Shown here one piece after another: positions 43,815 to 50,153 of a stretch of 64,000 bases of DNA. Positions within the stretch are counted from its first letter, which is position 1; every line of letters starts with the position of its first letter. The notes under the pieces were generated by a model. It worked only from the letters and a program-made list of their open reading frames with translations, did not search any database and was not told the DNA's origin. The position numbers and the translations under genes are program-made. Origin of the DNA: Elusimicrobia bacterium GWB2_63_22 (lineage in GTDB: Bacteria; Elusimicrobiota; Elusimicrobia; Elusimicrobiales; UBA9959); the NCBI GenBank assembly GCA_001799735.1, contig MGUA01000037.1:1-64000 (forward strand), given 5' to 3'.

Positions 43815-43880
43815 GTGTAGGCATATTTTAGTTTTTTTGGGGTTGGAAAACAAATGTATAATTTGGGCGGGAGAGTCTAT

Positions 43881-45299
43881 ATGATCAGAAAACCTGCCGT
43901 GGCCGGTAAATTTTACGAGGGAGACGCCGCTAAGCTCAAGGCTGAAGTCGCCGCTTTTCTCAAGAGCGGGGCGGCCCCCGCCGGCAGGCTGACCGGTTTC
44001 CTGGCTCCCCATGCCGGCTACACTTACTCCGGAGCGGCGGCCGGGGCCGCCTTCGCCTGTCTTAAGAACGCGGATATCGACACCCTGGTGATACTGGCCA
44101 CCGGCCACACCATGGCGCTGGATAAAGGCGCGCTGCCGGCGGAAGGTTCGTTCGAGACCCCGCTCGGCCTGGTGGAGATAGACACCCCCTTCTGTGCCGA
44201 GCTGCTTAAGGAGAAAAAACTTTTTGAGACCTCCCCCCGCGCCCACGCCGGCGAGCACGCCGTGGAGGTGCAGTTGCCTTTTCTGCAGGCGCTCAAAGGA
44301 GACAAGGTTAAGATAGTTCCCATCCTGTTCAACTCTTCCGACGAGGGACTGCTGCAGGAGGCCGGCCGCGCCATAGGCCGCGCCATGAAAGGCCGCCGTG
44401 CGCTGTTCTGCGTTTCCTCCGACCTCAGCCATTACCCGCCCGGCAAGATAGCGGAGCTTTCTGACCGCTCCGTGCTGCTGGCGCTGCGCCAGGCCATGCG
44501 CAACTCCAGCCCGGAGTACTTCGGCCTGGCCAACAGCCTGCTGCTCGCCAAGTCCTCCGCGCAGATGGATACTACAGCCTGCGGCCAGGCCGCCATGACG
44601 GCGGGCGCCGCCGCCGCGCTGGAGCTGGGGGCCAACGATTTCGAGCTGGCCGTGTACACGCATTCCGGCAAGGTTTCCGGAGACGACAGCGCCGTGGTTG
44701 GCTACGGGGCCGGCTTCTTTACCGAGGTTTCCCCCAAGCCCGCTGGCGCGCTGGCGCTGGGCGCTCCCATGAAGAAAGAACTGCTGGCCCTGGCGCGCAG
44801 CAGCATAGCCGCCTGCCTTAAAGCCGGAAAGACGCCGGAGCAGGCTCTTAACGCCAGGCCTGAATTCAACCAGCCGGCGGCGGTCTTTGTTACGCTGAAT
44901 ATCGGCGGCCGGCTGCGGGGCTGCATAGGCAGCCTGGAACCGCGCGGCACGCTGGCCGACATGGTGGCGGCCTACGCCGGGGCGGCGGCCTTCGAGGACC
45001 CGCGTTTTGCGCCGGTCACGGCGGCCGAGCTGGCCAAGATCACTATAGAGATTTCCGTGCTGTCGCCGCTGGAGCGGGTAGCCGGGCCTGAGGCGGTAAA
45101 GAAAGGGGTGCACGGCGTCTATGTCAGCGCCGGGCGGCGCTCCGGCACCTACCTGCCGCAGGTCTGGGAGCATTTCGACAGCCGGGAAGAGTTCCTCACT
45201 TCGCTCTGCCAAGAAAAAGCCGGCCTCTCGGCCGGCGCCTGGAAAGAAAAATCCACCGCGTTGTACATCTACACGGTGGATAATTTCTCCGAAGAGTAA
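43881..45299 (+). CDS. AmmeMemoRadiSam system fusion: MEMO1-like (B) plus AMMECR1-like (A)
   Basis: A 472-residue protein joining two families usually encoded by separate genes. Residues 1 to about 270 are MEMO/AmmeMemoRadiSam B (MIRKPAVAGKFYEGD, LAPHAGYTYSG, GEHAVEVQLPFL, SSDLSHYP). Residues about 285-470 are AMMECR1/AmmeMemoRadiSam A (LRGCIGSLEPRGTLADMV and FEDPRFAPV). The third partner, a radical SAM enzyme, is not in the window. The function of the system is unknown. I used the ATG at 43881, which matches the family's N-terminus; an ATG at 43854 is possible. Confidence 0.92.
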   Translation: MIRKPAVAGKFYEGDAAKLKAEVAAFLKSGAAPAGRLTGFLAPHAGYTYSGAAAGAAFACLKNADIDTLVILATGHTMALDKGALPAEGSFETPLGLVEIDTPFCAELLKEKKLFETSPRAHAGEHAVEVQLPFLQALKGDKVKIVPILFNSSDEGLLQEAGRAIGRAMKGRRALFCVSSDLSHYPPGKIAELSDRSVLLALRQAMRNSSPEYFGLANSLLLAKSSAQMDTTACGQAAMTAGAAAALELGANDFELAVYTHSGKVSGDDSAVVGYGAGFFTEVSPKPAGALALGAPMKKELLALARSSIAACLKAGKTPEQALNARPEFNQPAAVFVTLNIGGRLRGCIGSLEPRGTLADMVAAYAGAAAFEDPRFAPVTAAELAKITIEISVLSPLERVAGPEAVKKGVHGVYVSAGRRSGTYLPQVWEHFDSREEFLTSLCQEKAGLSAGAWKEKSTALYIYTVDNFSEE

Positions 45300-46435: not shown

Positions 46436-47251
46436 ATGAAGAGATTGCAATTCACGCCCGGCCGCACTCTGATTTGCGGTATCGTCAACGTTACTCCTGA
46501 TTCTTTTTCGGACGGCGGCAAGTGGGATTCAACCCAGGCCGCGGTGGCCCACGCTCTTGAACTGGAGGCCCAGGGGGCAGATATGCTGGATATTGGCGGC
46601 GAATCCTCCCGCCCCGGCAGCGCCCCTGTCTCCCTTGAAGAAGAAGGAAGGCGGGTTATACCGGTGCTGGAGGCCCTGGCGGGCCGGGTTAAGTTGCCGG
46701 TTTCGGTGGATACCTGCAAGCCGGAGCTGGCCATAATGGCCGTAAAGGCCGGGGCGGACATAATTAACGATATAACCGGTTTTACCGATCCTGCCATGCT
46801 GGCGGCAGTTGCCGCTACCGGTGCCGGCGCCATTGCCATGCATATGCAGGGCCAGCCGCGCACCATGCAGGCCGCGCCTATATATAAGGAAGTGGTGGGC
46901 GAGGTTAAAGCTTTCCTGGCGGCCAGGGCGGCGGCGCTGGCGAAAGCCGGCGTTAAGGACATAATGCTTGACCCCGGCATCGGCTTTGGCAAGACGCTGG
47001 AGCATAACCTGGCGCTGATAGCGCGGCTGGGCGAGCTCCGCGCCTTGGGCTACCCGGTGTTCCTCGGCGTATCCCGCAAAAAGTTCATCGGTACCCTGGC
47101 CGGCGGCGAGCCGCATGAAAGGCTTGCCGGCACCATAGCGGCCTGCGTGGCCGGGGCCGCCGCCGGCGCCGATATAATACGGGTGCACGACGTGACAGAC
47201 TGCCGCCGGGCCATGCTGGTGGCCGACGCCATAAGGGCCGCCGGTAGATGA
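46436..47251 (+). CDS. folP: Dihydropteroate synthase
   Basis: Joins p-aminobenzoate to the pterin pyrophosphate in folate synthesis; the target of sulfonamides. The 271-residue TIM barrel has CGIVNVTPDSFSDGG near residue 14, LDIGGESSRPGS near 50, SVDTCKP near 92, INDITGF near 112, DPGIGFGKTLEHN near 178 and GVSRKKFIG near 205. The folKC gene begins four bases before its stop (ATGA), so they are co-translated. Confidence 0.96.
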   Translation: MKRLQFTPGRTLICGIVNVTPDSFSDGGKWDSTQAAVAHALELEAQGADMLDIGGESSRPGSAPVSLEEEGRRVIPVLEALAGRVKLPVSVDTCKPELAIMAVKAGADIINDITGFTDPAMLAAVAATGAGAIAMHMQGQPRTMQAAPIYKEVVGEVKAFLAARAAALAKAGVKDIMLDPGIGFGKTLEHNLALIARLGELRALGYPVFLGVSRKKFIGTLAGGEPHERLAGTIAACVAGAAAGADIIRVHDVTDCRRAMLVADAIRAAGR

Positions 47252-48981
47252 AAGTTTACCTTTCCCTCGGTTCCAACCTCGGCGACAGGTTGGCCAACCT
47301 GCAGCGCGCGTTGGCGCTGCTCGGGCGAAGCGGCTGCCGGGTCGTCAGGAAGTCTTCAGTTTACGAGACCGCCCCCCTCTACTATCTCGCCCAGCCCGCT
47401 TTCTTCAACCAGGCCGTTGTCTGCGAGACCCGGCTTTCCCCCGAAGGCCTGCTGGCGCTTATAGGGCGCGCGGAGAAGGCGCTCAAGCGCAGCCGCCTGG
47501 TAAAGAACGGGCCGCGCACGGCGGACATCGACATCCTTTTTTACGGCGGGCACGTGATAAACGGCCCCGGGCTGCAGGTGCCACACCCCCGCCTGGCCGA
47601 GCGCGAGTTTGTGCTGGCCCCGCTGGCCGAAATAGCGCCCGGCCTGCGGCACCCGGTCACCGGGGTAAGCGCGGCCGAGATGCTGGCGGCCCTTAAAGAC
47701 CTCGGGGGCGCGCGCCGCCTGCCCGCCACTTACGACGAGGCCCAGGCCTGGCTGGCCGCCCTCCCCCCGCCGTCGGCTTCGGCCCATTACTCGCTGGACA
47801 AAATAAAGGCCGCCCTCGCCGGGCTGGGCAGGCCTGAAAAACACATGGGCCTGGTGGTACACATAACGGGGTCTACCGGCAAAACCAGCTCCGCCTGCCT
47901 GACGGCTGCGGCCCTGACGGCCTGCGGCCACCGTACCGGGCTCTACACCAGCCCGCATCTCACCGGGCCGCGCGAACGCATAAAGCTGGGCGGCGCGGAG
48001 ATAAGCCGCAAAGATTTTCTCTCTTGCCTGCTGAAAGTGGAGTCTGTCGCCGCCGGGGAGCTTTCTTATTTTGAACTGCTCACCGCTATGGCTTTTCTGT
48101 ATTTTTCTCAGAAGAAGGCGCGCTTCTCGGTGATAGAGGCCGGGCTGGGCGGACGCCTGGACGCTACCAACGCCGCCGATGGCGCGGTGGCCGGCATCAC
48201 GTCGGTGAGCCTGGAGCACGCGGCGCTGCTGGGCCCCGGGCTAAAAGATATCGCCGCGCATAAGGCCGGCATCATAAAGGAAGGGAGCTGCGCGCTGGCG
48301 GGCCTGCGGATCCCGCCGGCGGCGCTGGCTGTGATCGCAGCCCGGGCGGCCGCCGTTAACGCCGGGCTCGCCAGGCCGTCGCGCTATACCGCCTATCTCG
48401 GCCCGCTGGCCAGGCGTGGAGGAAGCTTTCAGGCCGAGAACGGCGCTTTCGCGCTGAGTCTCGCCGCCATGGCCGCCGGGCTGGCCGGGGGAGAGTTCAA
48501 TCTTAACAAGGCCGCGGCCGCGCTGCCGGGCGCCGTCCCCCCCGGCCGCCTTGAAGCCCTTAAATACAAAGGGCGCGGTTTTATCCTCGACGGGGCGCAT
48601 AACGCCGAGGGCGTGGCCGCCCTGCTGGCGGAGCCGGCCCTGCTCGGCCGCCGGCTGTACCTGGTGCTGTCCCTCATGGAGGATAAGGCGCTGGGCCTTT
48701 TAGTGGGCAAGTTCGCGGCTGTCGCCGAGGGTGTCATCTTCACGCGGGCCTCTTCCTACCGCGCCGCGGACCCCGTAAAATTAAAAGGCCTGCTGCCCGC
48801 GTCTTTCGCCGGGCGCGCCGAAGTTGTAGCGGCGCCTGGCAGGGCACTGGCTGCCGCCCTGCGGCTGGCGCCCGCCGGCGCCGTGGTGCTGGCCGCGGGC
48901 AGCCTCTACCTCGCCGGGGATATAAAGGCTTTCCTGAAAGGCCGCACCGTCACCCACCCCAAAGAAATGCTGACCAAATAA
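47248..48981 (+). CDS. folKC: Bifunctional HPPK (FolK) / folylpolyglutamate-dihydrofolate synthase (FolC) fusion
   Basis: A 577-residue two-domain enzyme. Residues about 1-160 are FolK (LSLGSNLGDRLANLQRAL, RTADIDILFYGG, PHPRLAEREFVLAPL), which pyrophosphorylates the pterin. Residues about 175-577 are FolC: ATP loop HITGSTGKTSSA near 205 (usual form GTNGKGS), GLGGRLDATNA near 306, ILDGAHNAEGV near 447. Together with FolP upstream this covers most of the late folate pathway. Separate genes are the rule; a fusion is unusual. FolK and FolC calls are both secure. Confidence 0.93.
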   Translation: MKVYLSLGSNLGDRLANLQRALALLGRSGCRVVRKSSVYETAPLYYLAQPAFFNQAVVCETRLSPEGLLALIGRAEKALKRSRLVKNGPRTADIDILFYGGHVINGPGLQVPHPRLAEREFVLAPLAEIAPGLRHPVTGVSAAEMLAALKDLGGARRLPATYDEAQAWLAALPPPSASAHYSLDKIKAALAGLGRPEKHMGLVVHITGSTGKTSSACLTAAALTACGHRTGLYTSPHLTGPRERIKLGGAEISRKDFLSCLLKVESVAAGELSYFELLTAMAFLYFSQKKARFSVIEAGLGGRLDATNAADGAVAGITSVSLEHAALLGPGLKDIAAHKAGIIKEGSCALAGLRIPPAALAVIAARAAAVNAGLARPSRYTAYLGPLARRGGSFQAENGAFALSLAAMAAGLAGGEFNLNKAAAALPGAVPPGRLEALKYKGRGFILDGAHNAEGVAALLAEPALLGRRLYLVLSLMEDKALGLLVGKFAAVAEGVIFTRASSYRAADPVKLKGLLPASFAGRAEVVAAPGRALAAALRLAPAGAVVLAAGSLYLAGDIKAFLKGRTVTHPKEMLTK

Positions 48982-49007: not shown

Positions 49008-49018
49008 GAAATCTGGAG

Positions 49019-49090
49019 TGTCCCCACCAGGAATCGAACCTGGATCGCCTGCTTAGAAGGCAGGAGCTCTATCCGTTGAGCTATGGGGAC
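49019..49090 (-). tRNA. tRNA-Arg (anticodon TCT)
   Basis: Minus-strand cloverleaf: acceptor GTCCCCA with TGGGGAC, D arm AGCTCAACGGATAGAGC, anticodon stem CCTGC/GCAGG with loop CTTCTAA (TCT), T arm containing GGTTCGATTCC, discriminator A. CCA is not encoded. A terminator follows. Confidence 0.95.
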
Positions 49091-49127: not shown

Positions 49128-50153
49128 TCAGCCCTGCGCTCCCAGCTGGCCGTACCCGGCGGCTATGTCCGCGCCCTTTTCCCGGCGCAGGTGGGCGCGC
49201 ACGCCTCCCTCCGCCATTGCCGCCTGGAAGGCCTTGGCCTTCTCAAAGCTGCCCGGAGTAAACGGTTTTCCCGAGGGGACCGGGCTGTACAGCGTCAGGT
49301 CCACCTTGCAGTTGAGGTCCTTTATCAATGCCAGCAGTTTAGCCGCGTCCTGCGGCGTGTCGTTGACCCCGTCGAAAACTATATAGTCGAAGAGCACCGA
49401 CCGCTTGGTCCTGTCGCCGTAGTAGCGCGCGGCCCCGATGATCTGCCGCAGGGAATACTTCTTGGCCACGGGCGTCAGCGCTCCCCGCTGTTCCTCGTCG
49501 GCGGTTATCAGCGACACCGCCAGCTTTATGGCCAGGTGCGAGTCGGCGAGCTCCCTGATCACAGGCACCACCCCTACCGTGGAGACCGTTATCCTGAATT
49601 GCGGAAAATTATAGCCCTTGTTGTCTGAAAGGATCAGGATGCTTCTTTTTACGTCGGCCCAGTTCATGAACGGCTCACCCGAACCGGCGAACTTAAGGCT
49701 GTCCAGCGGCCGGCCGGCCTCGCGGCGGCAGGCGGCGAACTGCGCCAGGATCTCCGACGGTTTAAGGTCGCGCTTGAGGCCCGCGGCGCCGGCGGCGCAG
49801 AACACGCAGCCGCAGGCACAGCCGGCCTGCGAGGAGACGCAGGCTGCGGCGGCCTCCTTGGTGAACGTTATCACGCTTTCGGCCCTGGCGCCGTCGGCGA
49901 AGGTGAAGGCCAGCTTTATCGTCCCGTCGGCGGAAACGCTCTTCTCCACCTTGGGCGCGGGGATAAAATCGTATCTTTCGGCCAGTTTCTGCTTCAGCGC
50001 CTCGTCTATGCCGGGCAGCTCGCCGTAGCCGGCGGCGCCCTTCTTGTGCAGCAGGCCGAAGACCCGGTCTATGCGCGAGCCTTTCTCGCCCAGCGCGACC
50101 AGCGCCCTGGCCAGCTCCTGCCTGGTAAAATCCCTGAGGTCCGGTTTTGTCAT
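49128..50153 (-). CDS. RlmN-family radical SAM protein lacking the methyl-carrying Cys
   Basis: A 341-residue relative of RlmN, which methylates A2503 of 23S rRNA. The radical SAM cluster motif is C112-x3-C116-x2-C119, preceded by Cys105 in CVSSQAGC, equivalent to the first catalytic Cys of RlmN (Cys118 in E. coli). The expected second catalytic Cys (Cys355 in DIDAACGQL) is replaced by Tyr334 (DIAAGYGQL). The SLHAPND-type segment is also changed (SLITADEEQ). So the fold is secure but the standard methyl-transfer mechanism should not work. It may have lost or changed function. Confidence 0.8.
   Translation of the reverse strand: MTKPDLRDFTRQELARALVALGEKGSRIDRVFGLLHKKGAAGYGELPGIDEALKQKLAERYDFIPAPKVEKSVSADGTIKLAFTFADGARAESVITFTKEAAAACVSSQAGCACGCVFCAAGAAGLKRDLKPSEILAQFAACRREAGRPLDSLKFAGSGEPFMNWADVKRSILILSDNKGYNFPQFRITVSTVGVVPVIRELADSHLAIKLAVSLITADEEQRGALTPVAKKYSLRQIIGAARYYGDRTKRSVLFDYIVFDGVNDTPQDAAKLLALIKDLNCKVDLTLYSPVPSGKPFTPGSFEKAKAFQAAMAEGGVRAHLRREKGADIAAGYGQLGAQG

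Follow-up and report, generated by a model that had tools for sequence, protein, structure and literature searches.

An RlmN-family paralogue of Elusimicrobia bacterium GWB2_63_22 with tyrosine at the position of the methyl-carrying cysteine

Cys355 is essential in RlmN, the C2-methyladenosine (m2A) synthase of 23S rRNA A2503 and tRNA A37. In RlmN and in Cfr, which methylates C8 of A2503, the methyl group is loaded onto Cys355 and Cys338, respectively, a hydrogen is taken from it by the 5'-deoxyadenosyl (5'-dA) radical, and the S-CH2 radical adds to the adenine; product release is aided by C118, Cys355 is deprotonated by E105, and M176 stabilises the Cys355 radical (PMC9692996). The C338A form of Cfr produced no significant 5'-dA and its SAM cleavage was abolished, and the C355A form of RlmN gave reduced 5'-dA (PMC3702613). 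Escherichia coli RlmN C355A showed no methylation and rescued neither growth nor subunit assembly (PMC11194073), and the Cys-to-Ala forms of Arabidopsis RLMNL1-3 were inactive; the crucial RlmN features named in the latter study are C355, C118, CxxxCxxC, and MGMGE (PMC10838301). No paper on a natural RlmN lacking the cysteine was found in the largely open-access literature searched.

The window analysed here, a stretch of 64,000 nucleotides, comes from a genome of 3.06 Mb that is 95% complete and assembled in 45 contigs. Profile searches, PDB-sequence searches, and an AlphaFold model identified the product of the minus-strand gene at 49128..50153 as an RlmN-family radical SAM protein of 341 aa with Tyr334 at the position of the methyl-carrying Cys, and it is the clade C member of the paralogues described below. 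The gene has an ATG start, a single unbroken frame, and a GC3 of 0.83; the plus strand of the same interval encodes no RlmN. Tyr334 is encoded by TAC at 49152..49154 (minus strand, read 49154-49152); in the phmmer alignments to 6fz6, 3rf9/3rfa, and 4pl1, it stands opposite Cys355 of E. coli RlmN. The preliminary description of this locus, which gave no strand, was thus right that an RlmN homologue carries Tyr334 (TAC) where the methyl-carrying Cys is expected.

The 341-aa protein scored 263 bits against the RlmN equivalog model (NCBIfam TIGR00048), below the curated cut-off of 290. The tested clade C orthologues scored 307-324 bits, the canonical paralogue A of the source genome 311, and its intact paralogue B 264; since the latter is also under the cut-off, the TIGR00048 score alone is not diagnostic. 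The Cfr models gave 151-153 bits against cut-offs of 468-550 (530-550 for TIGR04432 and NF000424), and a Cfr-type Cys338 is absent. For paralogue A, the Cfr models reached approximately 290 bits, almost equal to its RlmN score of 311, yet far under the Cfr cut-offs. The radical SAM superfamily model PF04055 was matched by the 341-aa protein with 50.4 bits (cut-off 29.5), and the cluster motif is present. The closest solved structures by phmmer were RlmN 6fz6 and 3rf9/3rfa, with 4pl1 aligned as well. Furthermore, the AlphaFold model, built with 42 sequences, had a mean pLDDT of 90.4, and its best PDB matches were RlmN 6fz6 (TM 0.87) and 3rfa (TM 0.86); the RlmN fold is thus predicted to be retained in the Tyr334 protein.

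The radical SAM motif and the first catalytic Cys are intact, as had been described: the CxxxCxxC residues C112, C116, and C119 were read at 49797..49820 on the minus strand, and Cys105, equivalent to C118, which in RlmN acts on the crosslinked adenosine, at 49839..49841. Glu92 (49878..49880, minus strand), the equivalent of E105, which in RlmN deprotonates Cys355, and the GEP motif are also kept. Several other motifs, all on the minus strand, are altered in the alignments. The otherwise invariant MGMGE reads AGSGE at 49674..49688 (M176A and M178S in E. coli numbers; ATG to GCC and ATG to TCG), and NLI.YN reads DLTLYS at 49284..49301 (N307D, I309T, and N312S in E. coli numbers). The codon before Tyr334 is GGG (Gly333), where all relatives have Ala (A333G). 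These replacements, together with the further accompanying changes CATG to CAAG and E256D, had been missed by the preliminary description. Of the four crucial features named in PMC10838301, the Tyr334 protein therefore lacks C355 and MGMGE and keeps the C118 equivalent and CxxxCxxC. The SLHAPND motif, read as SLITADE (residues 214-220, 49494..49514), is a different case. Its alteration had been taken as a second sign of divergence; the motif is indeed changed, but the change is clade-wide and accompanied by the normal Cys in all orthologues, which means that it predates, and tolerates, the normal Cys. The His of the SLH motif (E. coli position 235) is Ile throughout clade C and other residues in B, and the catalytic Cys is present in these copies.

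To put these losses in numbers, the columns invariant in twelve orthologues were counted, and 15 of 152 were lost in the Tyr334 protein. Among the 57 columns invariant in the C orthologues, B, A, and E. coli, nine were lost (T134A, M176A, M178S, E278D, N307D, I309T, N312S, A354G, and C355Y in E. coli numbers), while each orthologue lost 0 or 1 of the same columns in a leave-one-out count. The codon changes comprised ATG to GCC, ATG to TCG, CTN to GCC and GCG, ATA to ACG, and TGC to TAC, and several of the nine replacements require 2-3 base substitutions per codon. An error of sequencing, assembly, or binning might be considered in a genome of 45 contigs. Nevertheless, nine coherent replacements are spread across separate motifs, the frame is intact, and the neighbours (lipoprotein-PDDEXK-glpK-trxB-queD-maf) match orthologous loci, so that we consider an error of any kind highly improbable; a sequencing error can be rejected for practical purposes, as the changes are many and multi-base. 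The earlier preference for a divergent paralogue over a sequencing error, which had been based on the Tyr and the SLHAPND changes together, is therefore upheld by the nine invariant positions and by the canonical RlmN encoded elsewhere in the genome, and the SLHAPND argument has to be dropped.

The losses were more frequent among catalytic invariants (4 of 15) than among the remaining invariants (11 of 137), with p 0.044 in a one-sided Fisher test. The catalytic set in this comparison consisted of residues from papers and the SAM contacts of RlmN (residues 179-180, 211, 233-235, and 312). N312, a SAM contact in RlmN, is Ser in the Tyr334 protein. The nearness of the changed residues to the active site was deduced from their E. 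coli residue numbers and from the literature.

The source genome encodes three RlmN-family proteins, namely A (contig 20), B (contig 6), and C (contig 37, the Tyr334 gene), and three RlmN-type clades (A, B, and C) were seen in the genus. Paralogue A is above the RlmN cut-off and has DDIDGACGQL and MGMGEP; paralogue B has DIAAACGQL and MGMGEP. Both paralogues have complete catalytic residues, and A is the canonical RlmN that the preliminary description had proposed looking for elsewhere in the genome. The possibility that the Tyr334 copy is the sole RlmN of the genome was rejected, as two other RlmN genes are present. The single RlmN copies in other members of the order score nearest type A.

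Clade C orthologues were found in 13 genus members, with 65-73% identity to the Tyr334 protein. In all 13, SLIT or SVIT takes the place of the SLHA of RlmN, and all 13 retain DIxAACGQL, so the Cys loss is private to the source genome. The Cys is also present in all A and B paralogues that were read as far as the C-terminus. Moreover, a degenerate DNA pattern for DIxAxYGQL matched in the source genome only, out of 341 Elusimicrobiota genomes, and the Cys version of the pattern matched in 273 of the 341; the pattern search thus found no recurrence of the Tyr motif elsewhere in the phylum. In 26 genomes, the RlmN hits did not match the Cys pattern; of the full-length copies examined there, nearly all had an ordinary Cys in a motif that the pattern did not cover (e.g., DVLAACGQL or SACGQLG), leaving aside L081 and L099. 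One RlmN gene of another Elusimicrobiota assembly lies in two adjacent pieces (L098 and L101, G063 C14:19651-20570), owing to a frameshift or an assembly error. The same change, which the preliminary description had proposed looking for in relatives, was seen in this copy only. Relatives with the normal Cys and no other divergence had been named as a finding that would speak against a divergent paralogue; the first part applies, as the normal Cys is present in the relatives, but the Tyr334 copy shows much other divergence.

Upstream of the Tyr334 gene are genes for a lipoprotein, a PD-(D/E)XK nuclease, glpK, trxB, a queD-type (PTPS) protein, and maf, as in relatives; since this gene order is shared, the Tyr334 gene is a positional orthologue. 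A tRNA-Arg(TCT) gene lies 37 bases downstream (49018..49090, minus strand) and is followed by a terminator-like hairpin (49007-48985). A tRNA-Arg(TCT) with A37 was also found within some kb of an RlmN-type gene in four relatives (L064, L065, L069, and L071). RlmN can modify tRNA A37, and any tie of tRNA-Arg(TCT) to the Tyr334 gene would be a candidate association. A highly conserved RecD/UvrD-like helicase of 385 aa (L065:8201-9355, minus strand, and also L063, L068, and L071; 78-97% identity to the L065 copy) adjoins the clade C rlmN in four relatives and lies 1.5-7 kb off in four more. In the source genome, this helicase is absent downstream of the Tyr334 gene and is encoded on another contig (C7:16360-17517). 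Loss of the helicase as an operon partner was rejected, as it is present elsewhere in the genome and also in relatives without clade C. Elsewhere in the window, a single frame of 577 aa at 47248-48981 (plus strand), which overlaps the end of folP, encodes FolK fused with a FolC/Mur-ligase-type protein, and 43854-45299 (plus strand) encodes a single 481-aa protein with fused Memo-like and AMMECR1 domains.

A careful protein tree placed the Tyr334 protein inside the C clade (support 96/90), with an end branch of 0.44, approximately 3 times that of its sister lineage. In a two-ratio codon model of our own implementation, omega was 0.144 on the Tyr334 branch and 0.091 elsewhere (2dlnL 5.0), and omega = 1 on the Tyr334 branch was rejected (2dlnL 83). 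These values show that purifying selection has acted on the branch. When three-site-class models were fitted, the lnL gain was 5.1 for a uniform neutral tail, 6.4 for a RELAX-like exponent (k 0.69), and 11.6 for the release of a subset of sites, in which 11% of the sites were freed to omega 0.88 on the Tyr334 branch and approximately 89% stayed constrained. The advantage of the subset release over the uniform neutral tail, 6.5 lnL, was reached in 0 of 200 conditional simulations under the neutral tail. The highest posteriors for release were obtained for sites 158, 156, 124, and 82, then for several further active-site positions. As the omega of the released sites is approximately 0.9 and not above 1, positive selection is not indicated. 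On two control branches, the subset model likewise brought a gain, of 6.8-7.3 lnL, at other parameter values; heterotachy is general, and model misspecification inflates the gain of the subset model. Because two control branches gain similarly, the preference for the subset model over decay is suggestive and not decisive.

The same branch can be read as that of a relic, a copy redundant beside two intact RlmN paralogues that recently lost its catalytic residues and is drifting to a pseudogene, with no stop codon yet. The rate acceleration is specific to the Tyr334 gene (excess distance 0.13, against -0.04 to 0.06 for neighbouring genes), a neutral tail clearly improved the fit on the Tyr334 branch alone (+4.5 lnL; next best branch +1.2), and the relaxation parameter noted above agrees with loosened constraint. 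The intact frame is weak evidence to the contrary, since only 0.54 nonsense mutations are expected in the fitted neutral tail. The relic reading also draws on the redundancy of the copy, the length of its branch, and its occurrence in one genome only. However, a uniform-decay tail fitted to the 15 losses predicted 0.87 multi-step replacements, whereas 5 were observed (p 0.003), and a tail fitted to the 5 multi-step replacements predicted 43 losses. The losses are also skewed to catalytic positions, and all cluster ligands, C105, E92, and GEP are retained. A relic is accordingly a possible but somewhat unlikely explanation.

Alternatively, catalysis may be gone and the protein maintained for a role in RNA binding or assembly. 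The constraint on about 89% of the sites, while the catalytic ring is released, would fit such a pseudoenzyme, and methylation-independent assembly roles are known for RlmB and RlmKL (PMC11194073). On the other hand, the failure of E. coli RlmN C355A to restore growth or subunit assembly (PMC11194073) argues that RlmN has no such second role, and if the protein did nothing but bind RNA, loss of the cluster cysteines would be expected too, whereas they are retained here. We hold this explanation to be unlikely.

Since Tyr is unable to form a methyl thioether, the RlmN/Cfr reaction should be barred in the Tyr334 protein, and, given its sequence and the known need for the Cys, m2A synthesis has almost certainly been lost in this copy. 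We favour, with about an even chance of being right, a lineage-specific ex-RlmN in which the methyl-carrier site was taken apart but selection on the fold continued. The ancestor would be the third RlmN-type paralogue (clade C), which in all other members of the genus carries a full set of RlmN catalytic residues. In the source lineage, the methyl-carrying Cys changed to Tyr, and residues that in RlmN surround or serve Cys355 (the MGMGE methionines, N312, N307, I309, and A354) were replaced as well, while about 90% of the sites, together with the [4Fe-4S] ligands, GEP, and the C118 and E105 equivalents, were held by purifying selection. The two intact paralogues may have left the Tyr334 copy free to diverge. 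The present protein may bind RNA of the old type, and its 5'-deoxyadenosyl radical, if used, may act directly on the target. There is about an even chance that selection still maintains the protein in a different role, the simplest being that of an RNA-binding radical SAM protein. The clustered multi-step replacements, together with the retained cluster and the C118 and E105 equivalents, favour selection continuing after the change. Against selection on an ex-RlmN, the copy is known from one genome, with no second sequence to show present-day selection; the approximately 3-fold longer branch is also expected under relaxed constraint; N312, a SAM contact in RlmN, is changed; and the gene context gives no pointer to a new pathway. 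A more specific proposal, which we regard as doubtful and put forward only tentatively, is an RNA-modifying radical SAM enzyme with a rebuilt pocket containing Tyr334, in which the 5'-deoxyadenosyl radical would carry out a non-methylation reaction directly on RNA, possibly with a tyrosine radical relay. Both descriptions of the Tyr334 copy, functionally divergent and catalytically dead, are possible readings of it.

Homology-based annotation would name the Tyr334 protein an m2A methyltransferase, which is very probably wrong. The Tyr334 copy, which lost the Cys along with residues serving it but retained the radical SAM core and was under selection over much of its past, can be regarded as a natural experiment in dismantling or repurposing class A radical SAM methylases, whose unusual chemistry hangs on one protein-bound methylcysteine. 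Compared with known systems, RlmN is by far the best-scoring family, and the E. coli enzyme (PDB 3RFA, 5HR7) shares with the Tyr334 protein the predicted fold, CxxxCxxC, the C118 and E105 equivalents, and GEP; unlike RlmN, the Tyr334 protein has Tyr for C355, AGSGE for MGMGE, Ser for N312, and a TIGR00048 score under the cut-off. With Cfr, it has in common the cluster motif and the scaffold of the class A radical SAM methylases, but it lacks the required Cys (Cfr C338) and is far under all Cfr cut-offs. The clade C orthologues (e.g., L005/L034, MAG UBA11697) share with it 65-73% identity, SLIT/SVIT, and the gene neighbourhood on one side; they differ in that Cys, MGMGE, and NLI..N are all retained and the RlmN cut-off was passed where tested. 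Arabidopsis likewise has several RlmN-type copies, RLMNL1-3, among which rRNA and tRNA targets are divided; all three, however, are active methylases that retain C355 and MGMGE (PMC10838301).
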